The notes beneath the pieces were generated by a model. The model was not told the DNA's origin and ran no database searches. It was given only the letters and a program-made list of their open reading frames with translations. 64,000 bases of DNA from Janthinobacterium sp. (GTDB taxonomy: Bacteria > Pseudomonadota > Gammaproteobacteria > Burkholderiales > Chitinibacteraceae). This document shows positions 4,544 to 51,669 of this stretch, one piece after another. The DNA is taken from assembly GCA_025360045.1 (NCBI GenBank), contig JANYCY010000056.1:1-64000 (forward strand). Reading direction: 5' to 3'. The position numbers were made by a program, and so were the translations under genes. The first letter of the stretch is position 1, and each line of letters begins with the position of its first letter.

Positions 4544-4712
4544 ATTCCTTTCCTAGCTGCAACTTTGGCTAACTTTTTACTGACACCTCCTTGAAGATAG
4601 CTAAGAAGTACATAACATCAAGCCCTAGCTACTTAAGATGGTTTTTATAACAAAAAAACAAAGCCAAACCTACTTCAAGCTTACCACTCAAGGCAAAAAT
4701 GAAAGTTATGCG

Positions 4713-4740
4713 CAAAAAAAACGCCTCATCTGAGGCGTTT
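4713..4740 (-). terminator. Rho-independent terminator after argD
   Basis: AACGCCTCA (4720-4728) pairs with TGAGGCGTT (4731-4739). Read on the minus strand the stem is followed by a run of T from the A tract at 4714-4720. It lies 15 bp beyond the argD stop codon. Confidence 0.9.
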
Positions 4741-4755
4741 CAGTGTGCTCACTTG

Positions 4756-5976
<1,221 letters not shown>

Positions 5977-8810: not shown

Positions 8811-9629
8811 ATGCGTCGAACGGCTTTTTTTGTCTCCGATCGAACTGGTATTACTGCCGAAATGCTCGGCCACTCGCTGCTTACGCAATTTGAAGATGTG
8901 ACTTTCCACCGCGTCACCCTGCCTTACGTAGATACGCCAGAAAAAGCAATCGAAGTCGCGCTGGAAATCCGCAAACATTCAGTCATCGATGGCTGCAGGC
9001 CGCTGGTTTTCAGTACCGTTGTGGATCCGATTATCCGCAAATTGACGCATGTCCCTGAAGCGCTGATCATCGATTTCTTTGAAATGTTTATCGGGCCGCT
9101 AGAAGCAGAGCTTGGGCAGGACTCATCGCATACCGTTGGCAAATCGCATGCCATCGTTAATTTTGAAGAATATAAAAATCGAATTGATGCGGTTAATTTC
9201 ACGCTTAATCACGACGATGGCGTAATGCCACGGGATTTATCTGAAGCAGATTTGATCTTAGTTGGCGTTTCCAGATCAGGAAAAACACCAACCTGTCTCT
9301 ATTTAGCCCTGCAATTTGGGATTAAAGCCGCCAACTATCCGCTCACACCCGAAGACTTTGGCAACCACACCATGCCAAAACTACTGCTCCCCTACCGTAA
9401 TAAATTATTTGGCTTAACTATTGAAGCAGATCGTTTAGGCGAAATACGCGAAGAAAGAAAACCCGCTAGCAAGTATTCCTCTGTCGACAATTGCCGTTTC
9501 GAAATTGCCGAAGCCGAAGCGCTGATGCGCCATGTGGGCGTTCCCTATCTCAACACGACGAGAATGTCGATTGAAGAGCTGGCTACCACCATCATGCATC
9601 GCACTGGCTTGGTAAGACGGACGTATTGA
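8811..9629 (+). CDS. ppsR: PEP synthase regulatory protein (bifunctional kinase/pyrophosphorylase)
   Basis: The 272-residue protein belongs to the DUF299/PSRP family, which inactivates PEP synthase by ADP-dependent phosphorylation of a Thr beside the catalytic His and reverses this by phosphorolysis. The N-terminus [12 protein letters not shown] and the P-loop [10 protein letters not shown] (152-161) are characteristic, and the C-terminal [19 protein letters not shown] region is typical. It is divergent from its target ppsA. The last codons ([10 protein letters not shown], stop) form the first unit of a 74-bp tandem repeat that continues downstream, so the 3' end of this gene has been duplicated locally. 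Confidence 0.96.
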
Positions 9630-9826
9630 TCAGAGCGAAGATATCCTGACCAGCTCACCACGCTGTGAGGCACCGCACTGGCTTAGTAAGATGGACGTAT
9701 TGATCCGTGCGAAGATCTCCTGACCGGCTTACCACGCTGTGAGGCATCGCACTGGCTTAGTAAGATGGACGTATTGATCCGTGCGAAGATCTCCTGACCG
9801 GCTCACCACGTTTATAGTGCACCGCA
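9601..9826 (+). repeat. Three tandem 74-bp copies of the ppsR 3' end
   Basis: Units start at 9601, 9675 and 9749 with GCACTGGCTTRGTAAGAYGG. Copy 1 carries the genuine last codons and stop of ppsR plus about 45 bp downstream. Copies 2 and 3 repeat this with few changes, and each still reads HRTGLVRWTY-stop in its own frame. Copy 3 breaks off near 9810 and runs into GTGCACCGCA, which resembles the start of another unit. Confidence 0.92.
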
Positions 9827-47088: not shown

Positions 47089-47835
47089 TTACATCTGTTT
47101 AAATAAATGGGTAAAGCTACGGCTGACTTCTAGTTTTTCGCTTAGGCCATTCACTTTAACCAATAAACGCCCGCGCAAATCCTTCACCACGCCTTCAATT
47201 GCCTTGCTATTAACCAAGGTGGCGCGGTGAATTTGCCAAAAGAGATCAGGATTAAGTTCTTCTAATAAATCACGCACGGGTTTTCTAATTAAAGCTTCGT
47301 AATTTTTAGTTTGCACCCGCGTATATTTTTCATCCGATTGAAAAAATAATACTTCCTCAACCGGAATCAAACGTAATTCCTGCCCCATCGATGCCTGTAT
47401 CCACTGTAAATAAGCAGGCTTATTGCTAACCTGCTTGGCAATTTGTGCAATTAACGTTTGCATATCATTGGGCGGGCTAGCGAGGCGTTTTTTTAAACGC
47501 TCTACCGTTAAAGCTAAGCGTTCAGTGTCCGCAGGCTTTAATACATAATCAATTGCGCCATGCTCAAACGCTTCTACCGCATATTGATCATAAGCCGTTA
47601 CAAACACCACATGGGTTAATTGCGAAATGGCTTGCGCTGCCTCTAAACCTGTCAACCCTGGCATGCGAATATCTAAAAAAGCAAAATCAGGACGATGCGC
47701 TAATGTTTGGCTAATCGCTTCTTCGCCATTTTTGGCCTCAGCAATGATTTCTAATTCTGGCCACACCTGTGCAAGGCGTAGTTTTAATTGATCACGCATT
47801 AAACGTTCATCATCGGCAATTAGCGCAGTAGGCAT
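47089..47835 (-). CDS. LytTR-type response regulator (AlgR/LytR family)
   Basis: The 248-residue regulator has a receiver with DDE at 8-10 and phospho-Asp55 in FLDIRMPG, and a C-terminal LytTR DNA-binding domain (about 145-246) with FFQSDEKYTRVQTKNYEALIRKPVRDLLEEL and HRATLVNSKAIE. LytTR proteins bind direct repeats and often control surface or competence genes and peptide signalling. It is the last gene of a three-gene operon with the LytS-like kinase and a small secreted repeat protein. Confidence 0.93.
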   Translation of the reverse strand: MPTALIADDERLMRDQLKLRLAQVWPELEIIAEAKNGEEAISQTLAHRPDFAFLDIRMPGLTGLEAAQAISQLTHVVFVTAYDQYAVEAFEHGAIDYVLKPADTERLALTVERLKKRLASPPNDMQTLIAQIAKQVSNKPAYLQWIQASMGQELRLIPVEEVLFFQSDEKYTRVQTKNYEALIRKPVRDLLEELNPDLFWQIHRATLVNSKAIEGVVKDLRGRLLVKVNGLSEKLEVSRSFTHLFKQM

Positions 47836-47861: not shown

Positions 47862-49169
47862 TTATGTTGCCAAAGTATAAGGCACTTCAATGGTAATACA
47901 CACACCCGATGGCTTATTTTCTGTAATGGAAAAAAGGCTATTTCCTTTATAAAGCAAAGCCAGCCGCTCTCGAATATTTTGCAAGCCCAATCCTGTGCCG
48001 CTGCTTTTGGCCATACCAAAACCCAGACCATTATCAATCACACTAATTCTTAATTTCTGGTGCGCAATTTCTGCAAACACGCTTAAGCTTCCGCCTTCTG
48101 TTTTAGGCTCTAAGCCATGCTTAATGGCGTTTTCAACCAAGGTTTGCAAAATCATCGGCGGAAAAGCCGCCGAGCGTAAGCCTTCGGGGATATGGATATT
48201 AAATTCTAAGCGCTCTTCCATACGCATTTTTAATAGTTCTAAATACGCCGCCACCATATCGGCCTCACGCCCCAAATGATTGCTAGTGGCATGATCCCGT
48301 ATCTGCGGCAACACTTGGCGCAAATACTGAATCAGGCTGCGCTGCATAGCAGATGCGCGTGGTGGATCGGTTTCAATTAAATACTCAACGGACGCCAAGG
48401 TATTAAATAAGAAATGTGGCTCAATTTGTGCCTGCATCATTTGTATTTTGGCCTCGGCCACTTGCCTTAATAAGGCTTCCCTTTCAGATTCTTTTTGTGC
48501 TTCTCTGGCAAGGGCTTCGGCACGTTTTTTTCCACCCATGAATACTTTAATGCCCAACAACATCATTACAAATAAAAACACCCAATTACTCACGGAAACT
48601 TGATTGATGATCACGGGTTCGGGTGGCGTGTTTTTTTCAAGCCCACATATATAATCGCTCACGGCATCAATCAATTCATTTTTATCATCTGGAGATAAAA
48701 TACTTTCCTGAATTACGCTTAAATTGGCAATTTTGTCATGCAATTTTTTCTTGAATTTCTCTTTATCGTGGCCTGCTTTTGCCATGTCGGCTTGTTCTTT
48801 TGCTGCATCCGCTTTTTCTTGCTCTGCTTGCCGCTGATCTGCACCTTGATCGACTTGCTTCTCCCATACATCAGATGATTTGTCTAATGGATTAGGGCTT
48901 GCTTCTTTTTCCCCATCCTTGCGTGGCGCATGAATCACAACAGGCGGCGCAGGAGGGACCGGCAAAGCAACGGGGTATTCTGCTTTTCTAAAACCATTAA
49001 TCCCATCCTCGATCGCGCTCCCCATAATCATCAATAAAATCATTAAGAAAATAAACTTACCCCAGCCCATCTGAATCACCCAAACAGCCAGCCGGTCAAA
49101 TACTTTCTTCGAATAATCAAACAACTCATAGAAACGCGCTTTGATTATTTGTATATTTTTATCATTCAT
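47862..49169 (-). CDS. LytS/AlgZ-type sensor histidine kinase with a large extracytoplasmic loop
   Basis: The 435-residue kinase has two membrane helices (about 38-52 and 194-212). Between them lies a loop of about 140 residues with a Pro-rich start (70-80) and a highly charged, helical stretch (100-150) that looks like a coiled coil. The cytoplasmic part is a His_kinase domain with His252 in QIEPHFLFNTLASVEYL, followed by HATPase motifs VENAIKHGLEP and GTGLGLQNIRERL. It is 26 bp before the LytTR regulator gene and 27 bp after the secreted repeat-protein gene. The loop is not a sensor family I recognise. Confidence 0.9.
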   Translation of the reverse strand: MNDKNIQIIKARFYELFDYSKKVFDRLAVWVIQMGWGKFIFLMILLMIMGSAIEDGINGFRKAEYPVALPVPPAPPVVIHAPRKDGEKEASPNPLDKSSDVWEKQVDQGADQRQAEQEKADAAKEQADMAKAGHDKEKFKKKLHDKIANLSVIQESILSPDDKNELIDAVSDYICGLEKNTPPEPVIINQVSVSNWVFLFVMMLLGIKVFMGGKKRAEALAREAQKESEREALLRQVAEAKIQMMQAQIEPHFLFNTLASVEYLIETDPPRASAMQRSLIQYLRQVLPQIRDHATSNHLGREADMVAAYLELLKMRMEERLEFNIHIPEGLRSAAFPPMILQTLVENAIKHGLEPKTEGGSLSVFAEIAHQKLRISVIDNGLGFGMAKSSGTGLGLQNIRERLALLYKGNSLFSITENKPSGVCITIEVPYTLAT

Positions 49170-49196: not shown

Positions 49197-49661
49197 TTAC
49201 ACGCCATAAGGCATAAAAATATTAATTCTTTTCACCAATATCATTGATGGTGTAGTGGTATTAAAAAAAACCCCATCGCCCTGCTCTGCGGCCATGATCA
49301 TTGATGGCAATAGCGGAGCGTGTTCTCGCTTAGCAATCACTTCTATTCTTGGTAATTTAATAATTACTGCGTTTTTAGCCAGTTTTGTATCAGGCACGGC
49401 CATTTCTGTTGGCATTTTATTAATTGCATTATGACGCTTTCCAATTACCTCTATTCTTGGCAACTTAATAATCACTGCGTCTTTAGCCAATGGCGTATCA
49501 AATGCGGCTAACTTTATTGGCGCTTTATTGATTTCATCATGACGCTTTCCAATCACCTCTATTCTTGGCAACTTAATAATCACTGCGTCTTTAGCAATAG
49601 GTGCAGCAAAAACAGGAGAAGAAATCATCAGTGCAGTAGCAATCAACATTAAGGCTTTCAT
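49197..49661 (-). CDS. Secreted protein with three 36-residue repeats, unknown function
   Basis: The 154-residue product has a signal peptide (1-20, ending VFAAP) followed by three copies of a 36-residue unit whose core is AKDAVIIKLPRIEVIGKRH; the third reads AKNAVIIKLPRIEVIAKRE. At DNA level the units are spaced exactly 108 bp (starts of CTATTCTT at 49343, 49451 and 49559). Each core ends in a Lys-Arg pair. Linkers between cores differ, and a non-repeated tail of about 40 residues follows. I chose ATG 49661 over a TTG five codons earlier. It heads an operon with a LytS-like kinase and a LytTR regulator. I do not recognise the family; the LPRIEVIGKR string recalls TonB-box-like segments, which is only a resemblance. 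Confidence 0.8.
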   Translation of the reverse strand: MKALMLIATALMISSPVFAAPIAKDAVIIKLPRIEVIGKRHDEINKAPIKLAAFDTPLAKDAVIIKLPRIEVIGKRHNAINKMPTEMAVPDTKLAKNAVIIKLPRIEVIAKREHAPLLPSMIMAAEQGDGVFFNTTTPSMILVKRINIFMPYGV

Positions 49662-49797
49662 GACATTCTCTTGCAAAGTTGGAGTAATGTCACTTTAAAC
49701 AAAGCCATTCCTAGGCGAAATAGCGCTGCGATCAAGTGTAAAAAGTGAGGTTTAAACTGCAAAAAAGCATGGATAGGATGCAAAGGTCGATTTATTT

Positions 49798-49957
49798 AGG
49801 ACTTAGCTTATATTTAATTTCCCCGTTTTGAAACGTCGTCATTCCCGCATGCTTTTGGCGGGGATCCAGCTGCGCGACTGGATCCCCAATAAAAACACTC
49901 GGGGATGACGGTTTTTTTAGATTAACCATACACAGGAAGTTATTTCGAGCTACATCC
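49798..49957. repeat. Dispersed element, family D (copy 2)
   Basis: It begins AGGACTTAGCTTATATTTAA, contains CGTCATTCCCGCATGC, GGATCCAGCTGCGCGACTGG and CTCGGGGATGACGG, and ends GGAAGTTATTTCGAGCTACATCC. Order and ends match copy 1 at 45846-46002. The central GCGGGGATCC and GGATCCCC parts make a hairpin. Confidence 0.78.
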
Positions 49958-50042: not shown

Positions 50043-51440
50043 TTATTTAAGCTCGCTCGCAGCAGAAGCCACCTCATGCTTTTTACGGGCTTTTTCAGCC
50101 GCCTGATAGGCGATGTAATAGCGGCTAACGGTAGAGACATAATCAACCATGCCTTTGCTTACTGATTTTAAAGCCACTTTTTCTACATTACCTAGCCAGC
50201 GATTTCGATCCAAGCCTTGGGCCGCGGCCTGATTTCGTAATTGCTGCACGCGGCCCTCGCCTGCGTTATAGGCAGCGATCATAAAATACAGCTGGTCTTC
50301 ATCATTGATGCCAGGATTATTAAAAAAGTCGCGTAAATGACCGAGATAGCGCGCGGCAGCGGTCACATTCCCCTCGGCCTCGTGCGGATTTTTAACCCCC
50401 ATATTGCGTGCCGTATTCGGGTTAATTTGCATCACGCCCGTAGGGCCTTTTTTACGCACAATAGAATTTAAACCGGTTTCTTTTTGACCAATTGCCGCTA
50501 ATAACAGCCAATCTAAATTATTCGCCGCCGCTACGATTTGAAAAACGGGGGCAAAGAAAGCCAGCTTGTCCAAGGAGCCGAGTTTTTCTGAGCTTTGCAC
50601 CTTACCATCGGCTACGAGAAAGCGTTTGGTGGCCGTTGCAGCCCGCTCAATCAAGCCAGATTTTTCTGCAAAGCGATTTAATGTAGCAAGCAGCACACTA
50701 TCTTCTTTACGCACCGCCCATGCCACAGGCACGCGTTCTTCAACACAGCTAATCGATTTTAATTTGGGCCATGTTTTGCCCCATAAACCCAAGACAAAGC
50801 TACTGGCCAATGTGGTTTTATCTGCGCCTTTATTTATTTGCGCGAGCAGCATTTCACTGCTCACCCCTGGGGCGGCGCTTTCCACTTCAAACTCATTTGC
50901 CCCCGCTCGGCGGCGAGTATCATTAAAATCACCGAATAAACGCTGAGCATAGCTACTGGCGGGCAGTGTAAGAGTGCGGTTCTCTTCTGCTCCCGACACG
51001 GTACACCAGCGATCTTGTAAATAGGGGGTAGAAAACGCCACCAGCTGCTTAGCGCCTTCCGTGACAGGCATCAGACCTGCGGCAATATCCCCGCGCCCAG
51101 CTCGGAGTGCGGGAATTAACTCACCGGCATCCACAGGAATAAATTGTAAGCGGATAGGAGGGAGGGTTTTTTCTCGGCCTTGATTAAGCGTTTTTTCAAA
51201 CTCGGTGAACATACTGTATTCCACACCATACTGACGGCCATTCTTAATAAAGAAAGTGGAGGGCCCCAGAGCCACCAAGACGCGCAGCCGCTCTGGTGGA
51301 TGCTCGGGATCAAAATCAGCGCCTGTTGCCGCCAATTGAGTAGGCTTACTTAAAGTCGGATGCGTACTTTTTACACTCGCCACGGGCTTGGCCCAAAGCG
51401 GGGTTACAAGGAACAAACAGAGCATTAAGAATCGTATCAT
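50043..51440 (-). CDS. MltF-like membrane-bound lytic murein transglycosylase
   Basis: The 465-residue protein has a signal peptide (1-17), an N-terminal SBP_bac_3-type domain (about 52-275) and a C-terminal SLT transglycosylase domain. Glu321 in AIGQKETGLNS is the expected catalytic acid, followed by GPTGVMQINPNTARNMG and YNAGEGRV. This two-domain order is that of MltF, which cleaves peptidoglycan glycan strands to 1,6-anhydro products and is controlled by its regulatory domain. I chose ATG 51440 because the upstream 45 codons are not protein-like. It is divergent from uup. Confidence 0.88.
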   Translation of the reverse strand: MIRFLMLCLFLVTPLWAKPVASVKSTHPTLSKPTQLAATGADFDPEHPPERLRVLVALGPSTFFIKNGRQYGVEYSMFTEFEKTLNQGREKTLPPIRLQFIPVDAGELIPALRAGRGDIAAGLMPVTEGAKQLVAFSTPYLQDRWCTVSGAEENRTLTLPASSYAQRLFGDFNDTRRRAGANEFEVESAAPGVSSEMLLAQINKGADKTTLASSFVLGLWGKTWPKLKSISCVEERVPVAWAVRKEDSVLLATLNRFAEKSGLIERAATATKRFLVADGKVQSSEKLGSLDKLAFFAPVFQIVAAANNLDWLLLAAIGQKETGLNSIVRKKGPTGVMQINPNTARNMGVKNPHEAEGNVTAAARYLGHLRDFFNNPGINDEDQLYFMIAAYNAGEGRVQQLRNQAAAQGLDRNRWLGNVEKVALKSVSKGMVDYVSTVSRYYIAYQAAEKARKKHEVASAASELK

Positions 51441-51669
51441 TCGCGGTTTCCGAGTTTGCTTTTGCTTGATTCTAAAGGCACAAGGTCGATTGTTCCAATA
51501 CTGTAGGTATCGGCTTGGGCCGCCCTGCCGTATAATCGCCGCTAAGATTTTTGTTGGCAAATCAATGCACGCCACCGTCTCAGCCCTTACAAGCTCAAAC
51601 AGAAGTGCAATAGTTGTCCTGTATATTTAAACATTCAAAACAAGCAAAACCCCTGCTTCAAGGTATCAA

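Follow-up and report, generated by a model that had tools for sequence, protein, structure and literature searches.

The gene at positions 49,197 to 49,661 of the window (the whole stretch of DNA analysed here, 64,000 nucleotides of contig JANYCY010000056.1) encodes a small secreted protein whose repeated 13-residue core resembles, by sequence comparison, the TonB box, the plug through which nutrient receptors in the outer membrane obtain power. The gene adjoins those for a sensor kinase and a LytTR response regulator and, judging from a conserved element in its promoter, is probably an output of that regulator. The features of the locus, each with its basis, are as follows.

47089..47835, minus strand: LytTR response regulator, 248 aa (Pfam Response_reg and LytTR; synteny conserved).
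47862..49169, minus strand: sensor kinase of the His_kinase family, 435 aa, with two TM segments and a hypervariable loop (Pfam; eight orthologs aligned).
49197..49661, minus strand: secreted TonB-box-like repeat protein, 154 aa, three cores (ORF list and translation; seven intact orthologs aligned; no Pfam family).
49200..49235, minus strand: C-terminal tail VKRINIFMPYGV, conserved, unexplained (seven-ortholog alignment; readable too in the one-core copy of genome G030).
49326..49364, minus strand: core 3, IIKLPRIEVIAKR (13.3 bits on the TonB-box matrix; purifying selection).
49434..49472, minus strand: core 2, IIKLPRIEVIGKR (matrix score and purifying selection).
49542..49580, minus strand: core 1, IIKLPRIEVIGKR, TonB-box-like (12.9 bits on the matrix; purifying selection).
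49605..49661, minus strand: signal peptide, residues 1–19 (sequence; relatives keep a VFA-A cleavage motif).
49754..49782, minus strand: direct repeat TGCATCCT-N13-TGCAGTTT, candidate LytTR site, 93 bp upstream of the ATG (conserved in eight species).
50043..51575, minus strand: MltF-like protein (SBP_bac_3 and SLT), the conserved upstream neighbour (Pfam; present likewise in the relatives examined).

The preliminary description had placed a small exported repeat protein 27 bp before a kinase gene, with a LytTR regulator following, and this layout was confirmed by the open reading frames, the Pfam matches and a tandem repeat search (TRF). The repeat protein starts at the ATG at 49661 with a typical Sec-type signal peptide (MKALMLIATALMISSPVFA-AP), and the kinase ATG lies at 49169. 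In the TRF output, the array has 2.5 copies of a 108-bp period, with 83% matches. The protein had been described as three near-identical 36-residue units, each ending in Lys-Arg. The 36-residue period holds, and the three cores in the window (IIKLPRIEVI[GA]KR) begin exactly 36 residues apart, but near-identity is limited to the 13-residue core while the linkers diverge, and Lys-Arg stands at the end of the core rather than of the unit. Across orthologs, the core consensus is IIKLPRIEV[IVL][GA]KR, with the last core of one relative (G031) closing with KK instead of KR, and the consensus of the tail, from the alignment of seven orthologs, is [KR][KR]IN..[MT]PY[GS][VA].

We did not detect any match to the repeat protein in Pfam, NCBIfam, plasmids (tblastn), viral contigs or the PDB. 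An NCBIfam match to the sporulation protein YqfC and PDB matches to ribosomal L18 were weak chance matches, and the second weak match in its own genome (L002) is a peptidase-like frame and not a relative. The protein is probably disordered: AlphaFold found no fold (pLDDT 39), which fits disorder, yet this is weak evidence because the alignment of seven sequences was shallow.

The window belongs to a genome of the genus Iodobacter, as matches to named members of that genus show. Among 43 genomes of the family searched at the protein level, the repeat gene turned up in seven of the nine from Iodobacter, whereas ten other genera yielded none. A kinase ortholog, 74–100% identical over the catalytic part, was present in eight of the nine. 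In the eighth of these genomes (G030), a one-core repeat gene lies between the kinase and SLT genes (L049, about 4659–4848) and carries a frameshift where eight T stand in a row within the signal peptide; its promoter element and C-terminal tail are intact, as are the kinase and the regulator, and the frameshift may be a sequencing error, a pseudogene or phase variation. The ninth Iodobacter genome (G028) has neither repeat gene nor kinase. The genetic link proposed between the repeat gene and the kinase/LytTR pair was therefore upheld, with the gene found in all eight kinase species (once frameshifted) and both absent from the ninth; every repeat gene that we found adjoins the pair, and the homologue search with a check of linkage returned no homologue without a linked kinase. 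Outside Iodobacter, no relatives emerged from a profile search covering 399 genomes from the order and 370 from the class, from a search for the exact motif within the order, or from a scan of plasmids, viral contigs and genome contigs. The exact pattern LPR[IV]..V.[GA]KR recovered from the 399 order genomes the repeat gene and scattered single matches at chance level.

Repeat number, which had been put forward for comparison between strains, was compared here between genomes and ranges over one core (G030), two (G033), three (five genomes) and four (G034), with spacings of 16, 29, 35 or 36 residues. When the gene in the window was compared with three orthologs of equal length, the 39 core codons showed 11–14 synonymous and 2–3 nonsynonymous differences, whereas the 65 linker codons showed 12–16 synonymous and 25–31 nonsynonymous differences. 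The cores are thus under purifying selection and the linkers drift. Because the core codons are conserved and the linker codons free, we take the 13-residue core to be the working unit and the linkers to be spacers. Conservation in eight species, together with the mostly synonymous differences in the cores, shows that the gene is not a product of chance.

Receptors from the same genome and family carry the boxes TIQLPAVVTTAAR, VVQLEAMTVTGEKTKR and KVERVEVTGSSIKR just behind their signal peptides, and core 1 of the repeat protein occupies this TonB-box position behind its own. To a matrix of 10 columns built from 32 receptor boxes, with the repeat-protein sequences left out, the cores matched at 12.2–13.3 bits, scores that 1–2 of 73,487 background 10-mers match or exceed; the three cores are duplicates and count as one in this evidence. 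Against a wider background, 1.6 Mb of the relative G031 scanned in 446,737 steps, 28 positions reached the core score, among them nine receptor TonB boxes and three positions in the repeat protein. The false-positive rate was 16/446,737, or about 0.5% for a protein of the length of the repeat protein, and in this relative the repeat protein was the sole exported non-receptor with a box directly after the signal peptide.

A blind profile, made from the repeat protein alone and containing no receptors, gave five matches outside the genus with E below 0.05 in about 770 genomes. Three of these contain stops, and both stop-free matches are TonB-dependent receptors (Plug confirmed) that align at the TonB box, one through IDLPRIEASA...ELPRIDVVGT and the other through KQLPRIDVIG. 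Their E-values are weak (0.006 and 0.028 per genome), and the search supports the TonB-box likeness because both matches fall on a tiny part of the proteome. In the receptor L194 (genome G452), the two TonB-box-like motifs, IDLPRIEASA and ELPRIDVVGT, lie 31 residues apart and before the plug.

Among real TonB boxes the core scores low: 97% of the left-out boxes score above it. It does not contain the T-A/T-G pair that is commonest in TonB boxes, and it carries invariant K and R residues that are dispensable in them. Five candidate TonB_C proteins passed the cut-off in the genome of the window.

Upstream of the repeat gene, the direct repeat measures 21 bp from start to start and is kept in all eight species amid diverged DNA; in G029, G032 and G035 its halves are TGCATCCT and TGCATTCT. 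Across the genus, the pattern TGCAKYYT-N13-TGCAKYYT was found in the repeat-gene promoter of six genomes and in three to four other places, and the reversed control gave no matches in the genus. The promoters of G031 and G034 have mismatches to the pattern. As the pattern was derived from this promoter, its weight rests on conservation and near-absence elsewhere. LytTR sites consist of two repeats of 9–11 nt with 11–13 nt between them, such as GGCATTTCAT-N11-GGCATTTCAT of yhjX, and the geometry of the direct repeat agrees with this rule (PMC4847170). In Escherichia coli, the transporter genes yjiY and yhjX are targets of BtsR and YpdB (PMC5552118). The repeat gene looks like a target of its neighbouring regulator because the LytTR-type direct repeat upstream is conserved and nearly unique, and the regulator would bind it there.

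The kinase had been called LytS-like, and its Pfam matches, His_kinase (PF06580) and HATPase_c, bear this out for the catalytic half only. The 5TM-5TMR_LYT sensor domain was absent from the Pfam matches and the protein has only two hydrophobic segments. Its loop is the least conserved region in the alignment of eight orthologs, varying in both length and sequence, and the charged coiled-coil stretch of the loop is missing in three species. The AlphaFold model of the kinase reached a pLDDT of 51 with a shallow alignment and, like that of the repeat protein, yielded no usable structure.

The gene order SLT, repeat gene, kinase, LytTR is kept among relatives. The close spacing of repeat gene and kinase holds for the window and G034, which share the 27 bp, but not in general: a cupin gene separates the two in G035 and G032, while G033 has a gap of about 230 bp and G029 one of about 470 bp. 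The intervening gene encodes an exported cupin-domain protein (L043 4617–5063; L046 4486–4932). In four relatives, a protein of 180–182 aa adjoins the LytTR gene (L043 1665–2213; L044 2887–3435; L046 1431–1979; L047 8617–9159). It has one TM helix and a proline-rich stretch, an architecture like that of TonB; TonB_C and other Pfam or NCBIfam matches were not detected in it, and it is not found at the corresponding place in the window.

We tentatively favour, at somewhat less than even chances, a reading in which the gene encodes a regulated, disordered periplasmic protein with stand-alone TonB boxes that engages or competes for TonB. The two-TM kinase would sense a condition, and the LytTR regulator would then induce the repeat gene via the direct-repeat site. 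The product would be exported to the periplasm and display one to four boxes, which would add as a β strand to the C-terminal domain of TonB, the manner in which receptor TonB boxes join that domain. There it would vie with the TonB-dependent receptors for access to TonB, a motor in short supply, or be engaged or acted on by it, and energised uptake would be throttled or redirected under the sensed condition. The anatomy of the locus, its conservation, the selection on the core, the likeness to TonB boxes and the conserved promoter element were observed directly, whereas LytTR binding, periplasmic export, TonB binding and the throttling effect are inferred. An array of short linear motifs would be expected to look like this protein, since its cores are conserved, its linkers free and both spacing and copy number vary. 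The stricter proposal of a dedicated, transcriptionally controlled periplasmic decoy that titrates TonB and so acts as a switch over all energised outer-membrane uptake seems to us rather unlikely, if worth stating.

Known TonB boxes belong to receptors or to the bacteriocins parasitising them. A self-made, regulated protein with multiple TonB boxes would, if the favoured reading is true, form a third class; it would bear on how cells share few TonB among many receptors and would point to a natural template for inhibitors of TonB. In the literature covered, which mostly did not include subscription journals, neither a natural TonB decoy nor an array of stand-alone TonB boxes came to light, so novelty is unproven. 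E. coli has 300–1000 TonB per cell, against as many as 14,000 copies of one receptor, and under iron limitation a single receptor type outnumbers TonB (PMC11658791). A multivalent competitor for TonB is plausible because TonB is so outnumbered by a single receptor type.

The repeat protein shares with TonB-dependent receptors the motif L/V-P/E-R-V/I-E-V-x-G/A right after the signal peptide, as seen in the matrix and profile matches. Unlike them, it has no plug or β barrel (no Pfam match), is small, and carries one to four boxes, the extra invariant K and R and a conserved C-terminal tail. In TonB-dependent colicins such as colicin M, too, a soluble protein bears a TonB box within a disordered segment (PMC11658791), whereas the 154-aa repeat protein has no receptor-binding or killing domain that we could find and has a Sec signal peptide, a repeated box and a link to a two-component system. 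The pairs YpdA/YpdB and BtsS/BtsR of E. coli likewise combine a His_kinase protein with a LytTR regulator, and the direct repeats in their target promoters are about 21 bp apart (PMC4847170, PMC5552118). Where those kinases have a 5TM-LYT sensor, the present one has a variable loop and two TM helices, and the apparent target is a TonB-box-like protein and not a transporter.

The repeat protein could instead be an envelope protein of short linear motifs whose β-strand core binds a partner other than TonB, for instance a TolA-like protein, a cell-wall enzyme or an outer-membrane assembly factor, with the TonB-box likeness arising by convergence or from a receptor N-terminus that switched partner. 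Such a partner would account for the extra K and R and the low-end matrix scores, and the conserved lytic-transglycosylase neighbour is in keeping with it. The blind profile search, however, arrives at the TonB boxes of receptors, and core 1 stands where a TonB box would, and we consider a non-TonB partner on balance unlikely but a serious contender. Least probable, and close to dismissible, is that the gene descends from a receptor N-terminus and is now neutral or decaying: the frameshifted one-core copy in G030 and the restriction to one genus would suit it, but the cores are under strong purifying selection across species and the promoter element and C-terminal tail are conserved.

The preliminary description had suggested a signalling role for the repeat protein, as a periplasmic partner of the kinase or a precursor of several peptides. 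As a partner or ligand, its cores would bind the loop or the membrane-proximal part of the kinase, perhaps in feedback. The linkage in all eight species, the joint absence from the ninth and the shared 27-bp spacing in the window and G034 speak for such a partner. Against this, the loop is hypervariable and the core invariant, which speaks against a matched peptide–sensor pair; repeat number (1–4) and spacing (16–36 residues) vary; and the kinase and regulator are intact beside the frameshifted one-core gene. The promoter element, moreover, suggests an output, with feedback still possible. A signalling role is thus not borne out, and we regard the kinase-partner form of it as improbable. Cleavage at Lys-Arg into multiple peptides sensed by the kinase is very improbable. 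In its favour, a conserved Lys-Arg follows almost all cores and precedes the C-terminal tail, and LytTR regulators elsewhere respond to peptides. The dipeptide needs no protease to explain it, because ordinary TonB boxes in receptors of this genome also run KVERVEVTGSSIKR, with Lys-Arg behind them. The copy number falls to one, G031 ends its last core in KK, the sensor loop fails to track the core, no dedicated protease or exporter was seen near the repeat gene, and the promoter site makes the gene look like a target.

Two further repeats were seen in the window. One, in the stretch that separates the SLT and repeat genes, is a near-perfect palindrome, GGGGATCCAGCTGCGCGACTGGATCCCC (49860–49887), the sole copy in the window and not recovered in dinucleotide shuffles; it looks like a mobile intergenic repeat. 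At 9596–9810, a 74-bp unit is repeated in tandem (2.9 copies, 92%), the array spanning the 3′ end of the ORF at 8811–9629 (272 aa), which by eye resembles a PpsR-type regulatory kinase, and the intergenic stretch after it.
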